NCBI GenBank assembly: GCA_031761875.1 | Contig: CP134492.1 | Coordinates: forward strand, 3,410,001-3,474,000 | Source: Bacillaceae bacterium IKA-2 | Lineage (GTDB): Bacteria; Bacillota; Bacilli; Bacillales; Anaerobacillaceae | Length of the DNA: 64,000 nt | Direction of reading: 5' to 3' | Shown here: piece by piece, positions 776-54,202 of the stretch | Layout: every line of letters begins with the position of its first letter | How positions within the stretch are numbered: position 1 is the stretch's first letter | The notes under the pieces: model-generated | Seen by the model: the letters and a program-made list of their open reading frames with translations, nothing else | What the model was told of the DNA's origin: nothing | Database searches by the model: none | Program-made: the position numbers and the translations under genes

Positions 776-790
776 GAATGAATTTCATTC
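776..790. repeat. solo family-1 end palindrome
   Basis: GAATGAATTTCATTC lies in the gap between the malic enzyme gene and the GntR-type regulator. It equals the two ends of the family-1 intergenic element joined with no body, and is itself a near-perfect palindrome. It could be a remnant of the element or an operator for the neighbouring regulator; the sequence does not decide this. Confidence 0.5.
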
Positions 791-11622: not shown

Positions 11623-11701
11623 GAATGAATTTCATAAGAATATTAAAATTGCCACATCAATAACTTGATGTGGCAATTAATCAGCAATATGAAATTCATT
11701 C
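11623..11701. repeat. family-1 element, short 79-bp form
   Basis: Ends GAATGAATTTCATAAG and AATATGAAATTCATTC are inverted repeats. Inside is a strong hairpin, ATTGCCACATCAA-taac-TTGATGTGGCAAT (11648-11677). The GCCACATCAA part is shared with the long copies. It lies between the converging M24 peptidase gene and a secreted-protein gene and could also end transcription. Confidence 0.7.
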
Positions 11702-19087: not shown

Positions 19088-19129
19088 GAGTTAATTTCAT
19101 AATTACATTTAATATTATGAAATTCATTA
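19088..19129. repeat. family-1 element, 42-base mini form
   Basis: GAGTTAATTTCATAAT and ATTATGAAATTCATTA, the two ends of the family-1 element, stand only about ten bases apart (TACATTTAAT between). It looks like the element with its body deleted. It lies about 50 bases upstream of ackA. Confidence 0.65.
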
Positions 19130-19406: not shown

Positions 19407-19422
19407 GAATGAAATTCATTTC
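19407..19422. repeat. solo family-1 end palindrome
   Basis: GAATGAAATTCATTTC lies downstream of ytxK and upstream of ackA. It matches the fused ends of family 1 with no body. Confidence 0.5.
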
Positions 19423-26841: not shown

Positions 26842-26956
26842 GAATGAATATCATAATACCAATAAACCAGCCATATCAAGCCGAATCTAGTTGAAAATCT
26901 TCTGTTTCAGGATGAAGTATCCTATTAGTGCAGACTCTGCATTATGAAATTCATTC
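26842..26956. repeat. family-1 element, 115 bp, diverged copy
   Basis: Ends GAATGAATATCATAAT and ATTATGAAATTCATTC (one mismatch). The body keeps the order seen in the 36.8-37.0 kb copies (AGCCATATCAAG, CTAGTTGAA, AGTATCCTATTAGTG) but has lost much of the stem, so it is an old copy. It lies between sspA and mbcS. Confidence 0.75.
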
Positions 26957-36777: not shown

Positions 36778-36784
36778 AATTGTG

Positions 36785-36903
36785 TGAATTTCATATTTAG
36801 TCTGCATTATATTAGCCACATCAAACTACATCGAGTTGAAGATGTTTAATCCAACTAGATGTAGTATCTTGGTGGCGTAGAATCTACTTTATGAAATTCA
36901 TTA
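36785..36903. repeat. family-1 element, tandem copy A
   Basis: Body: AGCCACATCAAACTACATC, then GAGTTGAAGATG, CCAACTAGATGTAGT and GGTGGCGTAGAATC. The right end is TTTATGAAATTCATTA; the left end is reduced to TGTGAATTTCATA. It lies head-to-tail with copy B directly behind. Confidence 0.85.
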
Positions 36904-37020
36904 GAGTGAATTTCATAATATCATTATATTAGCCACATCAAGCTACATCTAGTTGAAGATGTGTAATTCAACTAGATGTAGTATCTTAGTGGCGTAGAAT
37001 CTACTTTATGAAATTCATTC
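36904..37020. repeat. family-1 element, tandem copy B (best preserved)
   Basis: Ends GAGTGAATTTCATAAT and TTTATGAAATTCATTC. Inside, CTACATCTAGTTGAA (36943-36957) pairs perfectly with TTCAACTAGATGTAG (36967-36981) over a 9-base loop, flanked by GCCAC (36932) and GTGGC (36989). The right end overlaps the last codons of tyrS. Confidence 0.88.
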
Positions 37021-38360: not shown

Positions 38361-38636
38361 TATAAAAAAGCCCCTCCCCAAAAAAGGGACGAACTTATTG
38401 CATTCGCGGTACCACCCTTGTTGAAGGCAATTGACCTTCCACCTCAGAAAAATATAACGGTTTACCCGTCCTTTGCTACTAAAAAGGCTTTCTATAGTAT
38501 CTGGTACACTATAAAAAATATTTTTCACAAAGGAAGCTCCTGGAAGTAATTCATAAGCATTTTTGTACTGATTTTCAGCAACCATCAGCTCTCTAAAACA
38601 GGGAAATGCCTTACTACTTTAGTCCATTCACAGCTT
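38361..38636 (-). promoter_or_regulatory. T-box riboswitch of tyrS
   Basis: On the minus strand the leader has the parts of a T-box in order: Stem I with AGAGAGCTGATGG, a candidate tyrosine specifier TAC (38546-38548), the conserved antiterminator GGTGGTACCGCG (38405-38416) that pairs with the tRNA acceptor end, then a terminator stem of CCC/GGG tracts followed by T6 (38361-38395). Uncharged tRNA-Tyr would favour read-through into tyrS. The antiterminator is unmistakable; the exact specifier is inferred. Confidence 0.92.
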
Positions 38637-38642
38637 TTACTT

Positions 38643-49811: not shown

Positions 49812-50096
49812 GATATGTAATCCTCCTCTATATAATTACCTATTAATATTTTTCATCTTTTCCTGTTATCTTGTTTTAATAATGCAGTCATCGTATACAT
49901 TTTTTTGAGACCAAGTATTGCTTACTTCTTTTTATATCGACAAGATACGCGGAATATTTCAGTTAATTAGCAATTATTTAGCCGTTTTTTTTTCAAATGA
50001 CTGCCTGCTTAATGTACAAATTAACTCTATTGTCATTGTACACTAAAATACGACCATTTATGGAAGTGATAATACTCCTTATTTTTCTTTTTAATA

Positions 50097-50213
50097 AATG
50101 AATTTTATAATCCAGATTTAACGCCACTAGGATACTACATCTGGTTGGATTAAAACATATTCAACTAGATGTAGCTTAACGTGGCTAATATAATGGTATT
50201 ATGAAATTCATTC
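50097..50213. repeat. family-1 element, inverted orientation, 117 bp
   Basis: Ends AAATGAATTTTATAAT and ATTATGAAATTCATTC. The body reads as the reverse complement of copies A and B at 36.8-37.0 kb: ACGCCACTAGGATACTACATC, CTGGTTGGA and TCAACTAGATGTAG, GTGGCTAATATAATGG. Confidence 0.85.
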
Positions 50214-50453
50214 TAATTATAAAGAATTTTTTTCGGATATTTTTTTGTTTTTTCCAAATTTATTTTTCTTAATCGTATACTGAAGTCTTGTATCTAAGTC
50301 ATTTTCAAGTCCATTTCATCAACACTCTGAACCATGAGTTTTCATCGGCATCATTTATACTTAACCAATCAATATCAGCTATAGAGATTGCTAAAAAATC
50401 ATTTTTCCTATGTGTTTAGGATTTCACCCACTAAGAATAACTATACTTAGTAA

Positions 50454-51729: not shown

Positions 51730-51988
51730 TAATTAAAATGCTATAATTATTAGTCTTTTAAACATTCTCTATGAGTTAGGGATTATTATAAACGATTCTG
51801 TTCTGCTTGTCACGATTTTTCTCTTTATTGATTAGACGCTTTTAAGTGATAAAGTGTTTTTTTTGTGCAAAACCCCTTATTAACTAACTACATACTCATA
51901 CAAAAATTTGCTTGCATTTATGAATGACATCATCTTAATTCAACACCATATTAAGCTAATAAATTGATAATATAAATTTTACTGACAT

Positions 51989-52003
51989 GAATGAAATTCA
52001 TTC
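51989..52003. repeat. solo family-1 end palindrome
   Basis: GAATGAAATTCATTC, an imperfect palindrome at the left and right ends of family-1 elements, 37 bases before the FtsA-like gene start codon. Confidence 0.5.
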
Positions 52004-52039
52004 ACATAACTAAAAATTTTTATTTAAGAAGGTGTTCAA

Positions 52040-54202
52040 ATGGTTTCGAATGAAGAAATACCAATTTTTGGGCTTGATATTGGGACACGCTCTGTTGTCG
52101 GTCTTTTATTAAAAAAACTTGATAATGGCTATGAAGTTCTTGATATTGAAATTGAAGAGCATGATGAACGCTCGATGGTTGATGGCCAAATTCATAACAT
52201 TATTTCTGTCGCAAAAGTCATCACTTCTATTAAAGAAAAACTCGAAAAAAAGCATGGTCCCTTACGGAAAGTTTGTGTAGCGGCGGCCGGCCGTTCTCTT
52301 AAGACAAAGCGAGCTAAGGTGTCTCTTGACATTTCCAAAAAACGAGATTTTTCCCATCAAGATGTCCTTCATTTAGAACTTAGTGCTGTTCAAAAAGCTC
52401 AGTTTGAAATCGCTAAAGAACTTGAGGGTCAAAGTGTCAATTATTATTGTGTCGGGTATTCCGTCTTATCTTATCAATTAGATGATCAGGAAATTGGTAG
52501 TTTAGTAGACCAGAGTGGTTTTCTTGCTTCAGTTGAGGTCATTGCTACCTTTTTACCAAAAGTTGTTGTGGAATCACTAATAGCGGCCTTACATCGCGCT
52601 GGACTAGAACTGGAGGCTTTAACATTAGAGCCGATTGCAGCTATAAATGTTCTTATTCCGCCCACGATGCGTCGTTTAAACGTTGCTCTTGTCGATATTG
52701 GTGCTGGTACTTCTGATATCGCTATAACCGATTTAGGTACTGTAACTGCATATGGGATGGTTCCAGTAGCTGGCGACGAAATCACTGAAGCGATAAGCGA
52801 TCATTTTTTGTTAGATTTTCCTGAAGCTGAAGTCGTTAAACGGCTTTTATCGACCGAAGATGAAGTAGTTTTTACTGATATTTTAGGTTTTGAAACATCC
52901 CACTCTCGTGAAGATATTATTGAGCCAATATCCAATGCAATTAAAAACCTTGCTTATCAGATTACTTCTGAAATTTTAGACTTAAATAAAAAACCACCTA
53001 AGGCAGTTATGCTTGTCGGTGGCGGATCGATGACCCCTACTCTTACAAAATATATTGCTGATTTACTTCAATTACCTGAAAATCGGGTTGCAATTCGAGG
53101 AATTGACGCTATTAAGTCCCTAAAAATACCAGAAACAATAAAGGCTGGGCCTGAACTAGTTACGCCGATTGGGATTGCAATTGCTGCAAAAGAAAGCCCA
53201 GTAAAATACGTAAGTGTTAGAGTAAATGATCAAACGATCCGCTTATTTGATATGAAACAATTAACAATCGGAGATGGATTGCTGGCCTCAGGAATAGAAC
53301 TTCCGAAGCTCTACGGGAAGCCTGGAATGGCAATTATGGTAACGGTAAATAAACGTCTAATTTCCATTCCAGGCGAACATGGAAACCCACCTCTGCTTGA
53401 AAAAAACGGACAAATTTGTTTGTTAGATGAGTCCTTAAGAGATGGTGATTGTATTAATGTTCAAACTGGGATTAATGGAAAAAATGCAAAAGCTACCGTT
53501 GGTGACGTTATTGAGTCATTACCATCTAAAACAGTCACAATAAATGGTAATAATCACTGTTTAAAATCGACTATTTTGAAAAATGGCAAGGAAACTACTT
53601 TAACAAATAATCTAGAAGATCATGATGAAATTATTATTAAGTCTTCAAACTCAATTGAAGAAGTACTGAATTCATTGCAACTTTTTGACATAATACAGAT
53701 CTTAAAACCTTTTATCCTTATTTTAAATGGTCGGAAAATAACACTTATAAATGAGAATGCTATTATTAAAAATGGCAAGAATGCGCTAATTAATTCTAAC
53801 GTTCAAGAGGGTGATATAATTACTGTAAAAGGACATATAGACAAAAAAATTACCCTCGAAAAAATCCTAATCAATCAGAAAATTTCTCACATTCATGCCA
53901 TTACCGTTTACTTTAATGACAAACCTGTTGAGATTTCACGTCTACTTATTGAAGCAAAGCGTGGTGATGAATCACTTAATGAAAAAAGTTACCTTCAAAA
54001 TGACGATCAAATAACGCTTTTAGTAAAGCAAAAGGAAACGTTTATTTTTCAAGATGTTTTTAGGTTTGTTACTTTTAATTTTACTGCTCAAGAAAATAAA
54101 AAGCTAACAATATTACGAAACGAAGACAATGCCACATTCTCCACCCAAATTCACAATGGCGACCATCTTGAAATTAAATGGCTAGAAAAAGCAAAAAACT
54201 AA
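52040..54202 (+). CDS. FtsA/PilM-like actin-fold ATPase with tandem C-terminal beta-grasp-like repeats
   Basis: A 720-residue cytosolic protein. The first 380 residues are an actin-superfamily ATPase: phosphate-1 loop FGLDIGTRSVVGLLL (10-24), an FtsA/PilM-type 1C-like insert (30-150), phosphate-2 loop ALVDIGAGTSDIAI (about 222-235) and adenosine loop MLVGGGSMTPTL (about 330-341). From about 393 on come at least five short units, each with a V-x-V-N-[GD] start and an L-x-x-G-D-x-I end (RDGDCINV, EDHDEIII, QEGDIITV, QNDDQITL, HNGDHLEI), which look like ubiquitin/SLBB-type folds. Annotated in other Bacillus as an FtsA- or PilM-like protein; function unknown. It stands alone, divergent from aroA. 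Confidence 0.85.
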   Translation: MVSNEEIPIFGLDIGTRSVVGLLLKKLDNGYEVLDIEIEEHDERSMVDGQIHNIISVAKVITSIKEKLEKKHGPLRKVCVAAAGRSLKTKRAKVSLDISKKRDFSHQDVLHLELSAVQKAQFEIAKELEGQSVNYYCVGYSVLSYQLDDQEIGSLVDQSGFLASVEVIATFLPKVVVESLIAALHRAGLELEALTLEPIAAINVLIPPTMRRLNVALVDIGAGTSDIAITDLGTVTAYGMVPVAGDEITEAISDHFLLDFPEAEVVKRLLSTEDEVVFTDILGFETSHSREDIIEPISNAIKNLAYQITSEILDLNKKPPKAVMLVGGGSMTPTLTKYIADLLQLPENRVAIRGIDAIKSLKIPETIKAGPELVTPIGIAIAAKESPVKYVSVRVNDQTIRLFDMKQLTIGDGLLASGIELPKLYGKPGMAIMVTVNKRLISIPGEHGNPPLLEKNGQICLLDESLRDGDCINVQTGINGKNAKATVGDVIESLPSKTVTINGNNHCLKSTILKNGKETTLTNNLEDHDEIIIKSSNSIEEVLNSLQLFDIIQILKPFILILNGRKITLINENAIIKNGKNALINSNVQEGDIITVKGHIDKKITLEKILINQKISHIHAITVYFNDKPVEISRLLIEAKRGDESLNEKSYLQNDDQITLLVKQKETFIFQDVFRFVTFNFTAQENKKLTILRNEDNATFSTQIHNGDHLEIKWLEKAKN

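Follow-up and report, generated by a model that had tools for sequence, protein, structure and literature searches.

High-copy palindromic elements with IS1182-like ends and solo 15-bp palindromes, a probable MITE family of Bacillaceae bacterium IKA-2

The window analysed here is a 64,000-nucleotide stretch of the genome of Bacillaceae bacterium IKA-2 (G000, a single contig of 4.42 Mb) and corresponds to G000:C1:3410001-3474000. Short palindromic elements lie near several of its genes, which include rpsD, tyrS, ccpA and a DAHP synthase/chorismate mutase gene. A preliminary description had listed nine such sites as one MITE-like family with complete, shortened and end-only forms. They are given below with the boundaries found in the present analysis, together with the four flanking bases on either side or, where these are identical, the target-site duplication (TSD).

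36904..37020, + strand: full MITE of 117 bp between rpsD and tyrS; flanks atta/acta, three of four bases matching
36782..36903, + strand: full MITE of 122 bp, directly adjoining the 36904 copy to form a tandem pair; flanks aatt/gagt, two of four matching
26842..26956, + strand: full MITE of 115 bp; flanks gatt/gaat, three of four matching
50096..50213, - strand: full MITE of 118 bp between ccpA and the DAHP synthase/chorismate mutase gene; perfect TSD TAAT at 50092-50095 and 50214-50217
11623..11701, + strand: short form of 79 bp with an internal deletion; flanks tgct/tatt, two of four matching
19088..19129, + strand: very short form of 42 bp, scarcely more than the two terminal repeats (E 0.0056); flanks aaat/ctat, two of four matching
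776..790, unstranded: exact solo 15-bp palindrome; perfect TSD ATTT at 772-775 and 791-794
51989..52003, unstranded: exact solo 15-bp palindrome; perfect TSD ACAT at 51985-51988 and 52004-52007
19407..19421, unstranded: palindrome with one mismatch; flanks aact/ctca, one of four matching, no TSD

The positions first listed were right, except that two of the copies begin one and three bases earlier (at 50096 and 36782). Eight of the nine sites stand. The ninth, at 19407, had been grouped with 776 and 51989 as an end-only palindrome, but with one mismatch and a single matching flank base it lacks the marks of an insertion and is unsupported as one. The palindromes at 776 and 51989, the latter lying upstream of an FtsA/PilM-like gene at 52040 (a gene call below both family cutoffs), look like insertions by the same machinery as the full copies because they are flanked by perfect 4-bp duplications. 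Among the six longer copies in the window the duplication is perfect in one, matches at three of four bases in two and at two of four in three.

A covariance model built from 39 sequences recovered all six longer elements with best E-values from 1.1e-23 to 0.0056; the four full copies were in the training set and match by construction, while the copies at 11623-11701 and 19088-19129 were absent from it. The search returned 12 rows for the six elements, one for each strand, because the element is near-palindromic. The motif ATGAAATTCATTC occurs 23 times in the window with up to two mismatches, compared with 7.55 expected, and none of 100 shuffles reached this number. The right terminal repeat of the 36904..37020 copy contains the tyrS stop codon (37015-37017), so the end of the tyrS reading frame was set by the insertion of the MITE. 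A T-box leader lies upstream of tyrS (window 38382-38640, - strand, 152.8 bits).

When the 117-bp copy was used to query the genome, matches were found all round G000 (40 of 229 first-look candidates were scored), and the copies across the genome have common boundaries, a property that the preliminary description had proposed as a check on the family. At least 92 distinct places carry a full or partial element, taking the union of the listed matches of several searches with partial copies included. The 143 rows that the covariance model gave do not serve as a copy count, because one copy matches on both strands and scoring covered just 150 candidates. When up to two mismatches are allowed, the 16-bp end occurs 182 and 175 times on the + and - strands, compared with 6 and 10 for the reversed pattern. 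In three pairs of neighbours within this set of 92, the two copies are separated by 0 or 4 bp; one such pair is that at 36782-37020.

For a closer description of the family we used 65 copies from 336 kb of sampled G000 regions, picked because the element, its end or the palindrome was closely matched there; the fractions for length and TSD given here describe this sample rather than all copies. All 65 have paired 16-bp ends forming terminal inverted repeats with fixed boundaries. They range from 42 to 144 bp and contain no transposase gene, with 3 copies below 60 bp, 13 of 60–99 bp, 44 of 100–129 bp and 5 of 130 bp or more. The copies at 530886 and 4123194 do not differ at any of their 116 bp, but their flanks do. 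A subclass of 143–144 bp carries approximately 26 extra bases in the region of the inner stem (G000:C1:698911, 709063, 357392, 2755465 and 1098897). By ORF calls the copies are mostly intergenic: 27 lie in tandem, 16 in divergent and 13 in convergent intergenic settings, 5 overlap a called ORF and 4 lie at the edges of sampled islands. Separately, a further short repeat was seen at G000:C1:404006-404119 and at 1328138-1328370, where there are two consecutive copies (82% and 80% identity), and this is possibly another element family.

The preliminary description had also suggested a search for target-site duplications, which are present and exactly 4 bp long. Only 29 of the 65 full copies keep a perfect duplication, which counts against the explanation favoured below, and another 20 match at three of four bases. 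When the compared frames were moved outward by 1, 2, 3, 5 or 8 bp there were 0–1 perfect matches, and shuffling the pairing of flanks in 2000 trials gave a mean of 2.5 and a maximum of 8. The solo palindromes retain a perfect duplication at 29 of 45 places, with 8 matching at three of four bases and 8 at two or fewer; shuffled pairing gave a mean of 2.4 and a maximum of 9 in 2000 trials, outward shifts of 1–12 bp gave 0–4 perfect matches, and flank matches of length 3, 4 and 5 were found at 1, 29 and 0 solos respectively. Sites with perfect duplications share a base preference in the two forms, as the first base is A in 23 of 29 cases for both full copies and solos and the last is T in 25 of 29 and 24 of 29 respectively. 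In an empty-site check at one locus the G000 insertion at 401681 was not seen at the corresponding place in G001–G004, where the intergenic DNA has diverged too far for a clean empty site to be read.

The exact 15-bp palindrome GAATGAAWTTCATTC occurs at the 45 places in G000, compared with none for a reversed-pattern control, and with one mismatch allowed there are 36 further places, compared with 1 in the control. Some of the latter are the ends of longer copies: of 10 examined, at least 3 are such ends, 2 have a perfect TSD and 1 matches at three of four bases. Among the 29 solos with a TSD, 5 overlap a called ORF, all near its start. The two inverted ends of the full element also have in common the direct repeat ATGAAWTTCAT, with 10 of 11 positions alike; the inverted ends double as direct repeats because each is nearly palindromic. 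Deletion between these direct-repeat ends would therefore leave exactly GAATGAAWTTCATTC inside the old duplications. The single TSD-bearing solo found in G005, GAGTGAATTTCATTA with TSD ACTC, joins that lineage's left end to its right end, as such an end-to-end deletion predicts. A one-mismatch solo at G000 C1:401603 (TSD AAGT) lies in a gap whose syntenic counterpart in G003 holds a degenerate full copy (C1:1278678-1278796). The flanks are too diverged for certainty, and the case is only suggestive.

TSD-bearing solos number at least 29 in G000, compared with 1 in G005 and 0 in the other five genomes of the genus (exact search, two end variants). The variant GAATG..CATTR was found at 4 places in the relatives, none with a TSD, and GAGTG..CATTA at 11, of which one, in G005, has a perfect TSD; of the remaining ten, nine were judged by eye to continue into element sequence and to be full copies with a mutated end. 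The form GAATG..CATTC was partly covered, at places where the next base is T. Simple slippage leaves the abundance of solos in G000 unexplained, because almost none were found in relatives with many elements.

The elements themselves are widespread in the genus. Covariance-model matches were found in all seven of its sampled genomes, with between 24 and 150 rows (150 in G005 and 127 in G006) from 150 scored candidates and possibly with both strands counted. When 120 genomes of the order were taken in an even draw and searched with stricter filters, five had matches at E ≤1e-5, namely G000–G003 and G035, which belongs to another genus. A contig of Oceanobacillus alkalisoli carries an element whose ends are exactly the same but whose interior differs; it is flanked on both sides by AAGTT, which is 5 bp rather than 4. 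In G005 and G006 the consensus left end is GAGTGAATTTCATAAT and the consensus right end TAATGAATTTCATAAT (GAGTG/TAATG). In a first set of copies from the relatives 7 of 20 had a perfect 4-bp duplication and 8 of 20 matched at three of four bases. In a second set, whose boundaries were derived from the model and are in some cases off by 1–2 bases, the 4-bp duplication was present in 4 of 20 copies in G005, 9 of 16 in G006 (two of the 16 being truncated where a contig stops) and none of 4 elsewhere.

The preliminary description had proposed looking for a transposase gene with the same ends, and such a gene exists, in other genera. A search for the ends in six genomes from other genera located a 1562-bp insertion sequence at G040:C9:28453-30014, with ends GAATGAATTTCATAATT/GAGTCAATTTCATAATT, TSD AGTT and a transposase of 454 amino acids. 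This protein belongs to the IS1182 family (NF033551, 296.2 bits, cutoff 270) and has the Pfam domains DDE_Tnp_1 and DUF772. A second insertion sequence with an open frame, in G013 (L163), has ends GAATCAATTTCATAAT/GAATCAATTTCATAAA and TSD TATA, and its transposase shares 75% identity with the G040 protein, for which the family cutoff was reached. Both insertion sequences encode a transposase whereas the MITE does not, and by eye the interiors of the MITE copies have no visible similarity to those of the insertion sequences and look unrelated. Exact ends in G030 and G073 were discarded as transposons, as the DNA in which they lie is almost the same in the two genomes and looks coding by eye.

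Within G000 we found no distant end partner enclosing an intact gene among the matches listed, and the protein search returned relics only: a decayed copy tentatively placed at C1:492674-493707 (1034 bp, left end with 4 mismatches, flanks AAGT/AAAT) and an internally deleted copy of 281 bp at C1:4285745-4286025 with TSD AATT. In a protein search of 21 genomes the seven of the genus, two of which are genomes only 80% and 62% complete, yielded no intact sequence closely related to the partner transposase, and it is for this reason that the trans-acting enzyme is proposed from other genera. Open frames in G003 and G004 have 20–30% identity to it; one of these in G003 (L168) was rejected as the partner, having unrelated ends. 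It is one of 82 rows at 20–30% identity to transposases on G003:C1, many of equal score and length, and this likeness points to a probable large burst of other insertion sequences in that genome.

Taken together, the fixed ends, the 4-bp duplications and the matching insertion-sequence ends in other genera uphold the earlier view of a non-autonomous, MITE-like family. From sequence comparison we consider it very probable that this is a high-copy MITE family whose movement depended on an IS1182-type transposase acting in trans, an enzyme that G000 appears to have lost, and that the family is decaying to 15-bp solos. The enzyme, inferred from the ends and duplications of the intact insertion sequences elsewhere, would recognise the 16-bp end GAATGAATTTCATAAT and place the element at ANNT-like sites, for the most part in intergenic DNA rich in A+T, with the observed duplication of 4 bp of target. 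Copies would then decay through internal deletion, and deletion between the direct-repeat ends may strip out the interior to leave the observed structure of one 15-bp palindrome within the original duplications. The family is probably immobile at present, because the related insertion sequences in G000 have decayed.

The stem structure is open to a different reading, already raised in the preliminary description, in which the elements are structured RNAs or cis-regulatory hairpins (terminators, processing or sRNA elements) under selection at the level of the transcript. The 117-bp copy has a strong RNA fold (-46.9 kcal/mol, z -9.95), and the paired substitutions that the earlier note had looked to in the stem are present: an alignment of 38 distinct copies shows 22 changes on both sides of the inner stem, compared with 4.7 in shuffles (maximum 13), and 27 cells with a change on each side over the structure as a whole, compared with 6.5 and with 0 of 500 shuffles as high, both counts being inflated by shared descent. 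Inner stems in the relatives are also well paired, with a different sequence (by eye). One-sided changes lean towards G-U over A-C in the ends (20 vs 11) and in the middle helix (8 vs 3), giving 28 vs 14 for the two, where double changes are few (5 vs 1.9); these parts either carry the transposase ends or have changed little. Within the inner stem, however, one-sided changes have no G-U bias (14 G-U vs 17 A-C), and an RNA hairpin is not favoured there. Moreover the duplications and solo remnants indicate insertion, the copies occur in tandem, divergent and convergent settings alike, and an Rfam 15 search of the window at gathering thresholds found only a T-box elsewhere and no family matching the elements. 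We therefore regard selection on a transcript as very unlikely, and the symmetry of the inner stem as most likely arising in the DNA, for example if one arm of the hairpin were corrected by the other during replication.

The solo palindromes could also be read as operator sites, since the 15-bp sequence resembles a Fur- or FadR-like box. In G000 16 of 45 lack a perfect TSD, and three palindromes with the same core and no perfect TSD occur in relatives (L082, 3397; L084, 3407; L095, 3385); all three resemble Fur boxes, and those in L082 and L084 lie just upstream of ORF starts that by eye resemble lipoprotein genes. This interpretation is refuted for the sites that bear duplications, which at 29 of 45 far exceed the approximately 2.4 expected and have the ANNT preference of the full elements, and for the solos as a whole it is quite improbable. 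Somewhat different is the proposal that the palindrome itself transposes, its terminal repeat being read as a complete two-ended element and pasted by the IS1182-type transposase with a 4-bp duplication. Such a unit would have arisen once both ends became the same near-palindrome and, to our knowledge, would be the smallest transposable sequence known. Its TSD length and target preference equal those of full copies, and solos of the forms searched abound in G000 alone, where the left and right ends share one consensus; in the relatives the two ends of sampled copies differ (GAGTG/TAATG in G005 and G006), and a single TSD-bearing solo was found. Against this, two transposase-bound ends overlapping on 15 bp would seem sterically implausible, the unlike ends of the G005 solo correspond to those at the left and right of full copies, and the solo at C1:401603 has as its syntenic counterpart in G003 a degenerate full copy, with flanks too diverged for certainty; we think a mobile 15-bp unit unlikely. 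REPIN-like elements moved by a RAYT (Y1 HUH) transposase are likewise short, palindromic, mostly intergenic, high in copy number and sometimes adjacent, but the 4-bp duplications, together with the long terminal inverted repeats, speak for a DDE transposase and the matching autonomous copies encode an IS1182-type enzyme, which makes this origin extremely unlikely.

If the MITE explanation is right, an abundant orphan repeat of one genus can be tied to a definite transposase family through its ends and the length of its duplication. Scattered 15-bp palindromes in such genomes can then be transposon remnants rather than regulator boxes, and the series of solos looks like a natural record of whole-element loss caused by palindromic ends.

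Several known systems resemble parts of this one. RUP, Correia and ERIC are short, intergenic, palindromic MITEs of approximately 100–150 bp with terminal inverted repeats, which have other partner families and TA-type targets; the G000 family is similar in size, palindromic character and placement and differs by its 4-bp TSD and IS1182-like ends. Solo terminal repeats are a feature of eukaryotic transposons such as Galileo and the MULEs, where a single terminal repeat stays where the whole element was; those repeats are long, whereas the G000 solos are bacterial, palindromic and only 15 bp. A search of the open-access literature for bacterial MITE footprints and solo terminal repeats returned mainly eukaryotic work. 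The 16-bp ends of the G000 MITE recur almost unchanged, along with 4-bp TSDs, in the IS1182-family copy of G040 and in the closely related one of G013. The family name alone does not predict such a duplication, because IS1272, also of the IS1182 family, is described as replacing inverted repeats and making no TSD (PMC5678879), in contrast to the G000 MITE. The closest published case is MITEPye1 of Paracoccus yeei, described as having 18-bp terminal inverted repeats resembling IS1182-family ends, 4-bp direct repeats, a long stem-loop, a mostly intergenic location and a proposed mobilisation by the IS1182 family (PMC11578231). The two families thus appear to share IS1182-like ends, 4-bp repeats, a stem-loop and intergenic placement. 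MITEPye1, however, is alphaproteobacterial and is given as 1–3 copies per chromosome, compared with at least 92 places for the G000 family, and the sections of that report drawn on here make no mention of the solo terminal-repeat remnants present in G000 (PMC11578231). An IS1182-linked MITE is therefore a kind already published, and it is the population of 15-bp solo remnants that is the unusual part of the family described here.
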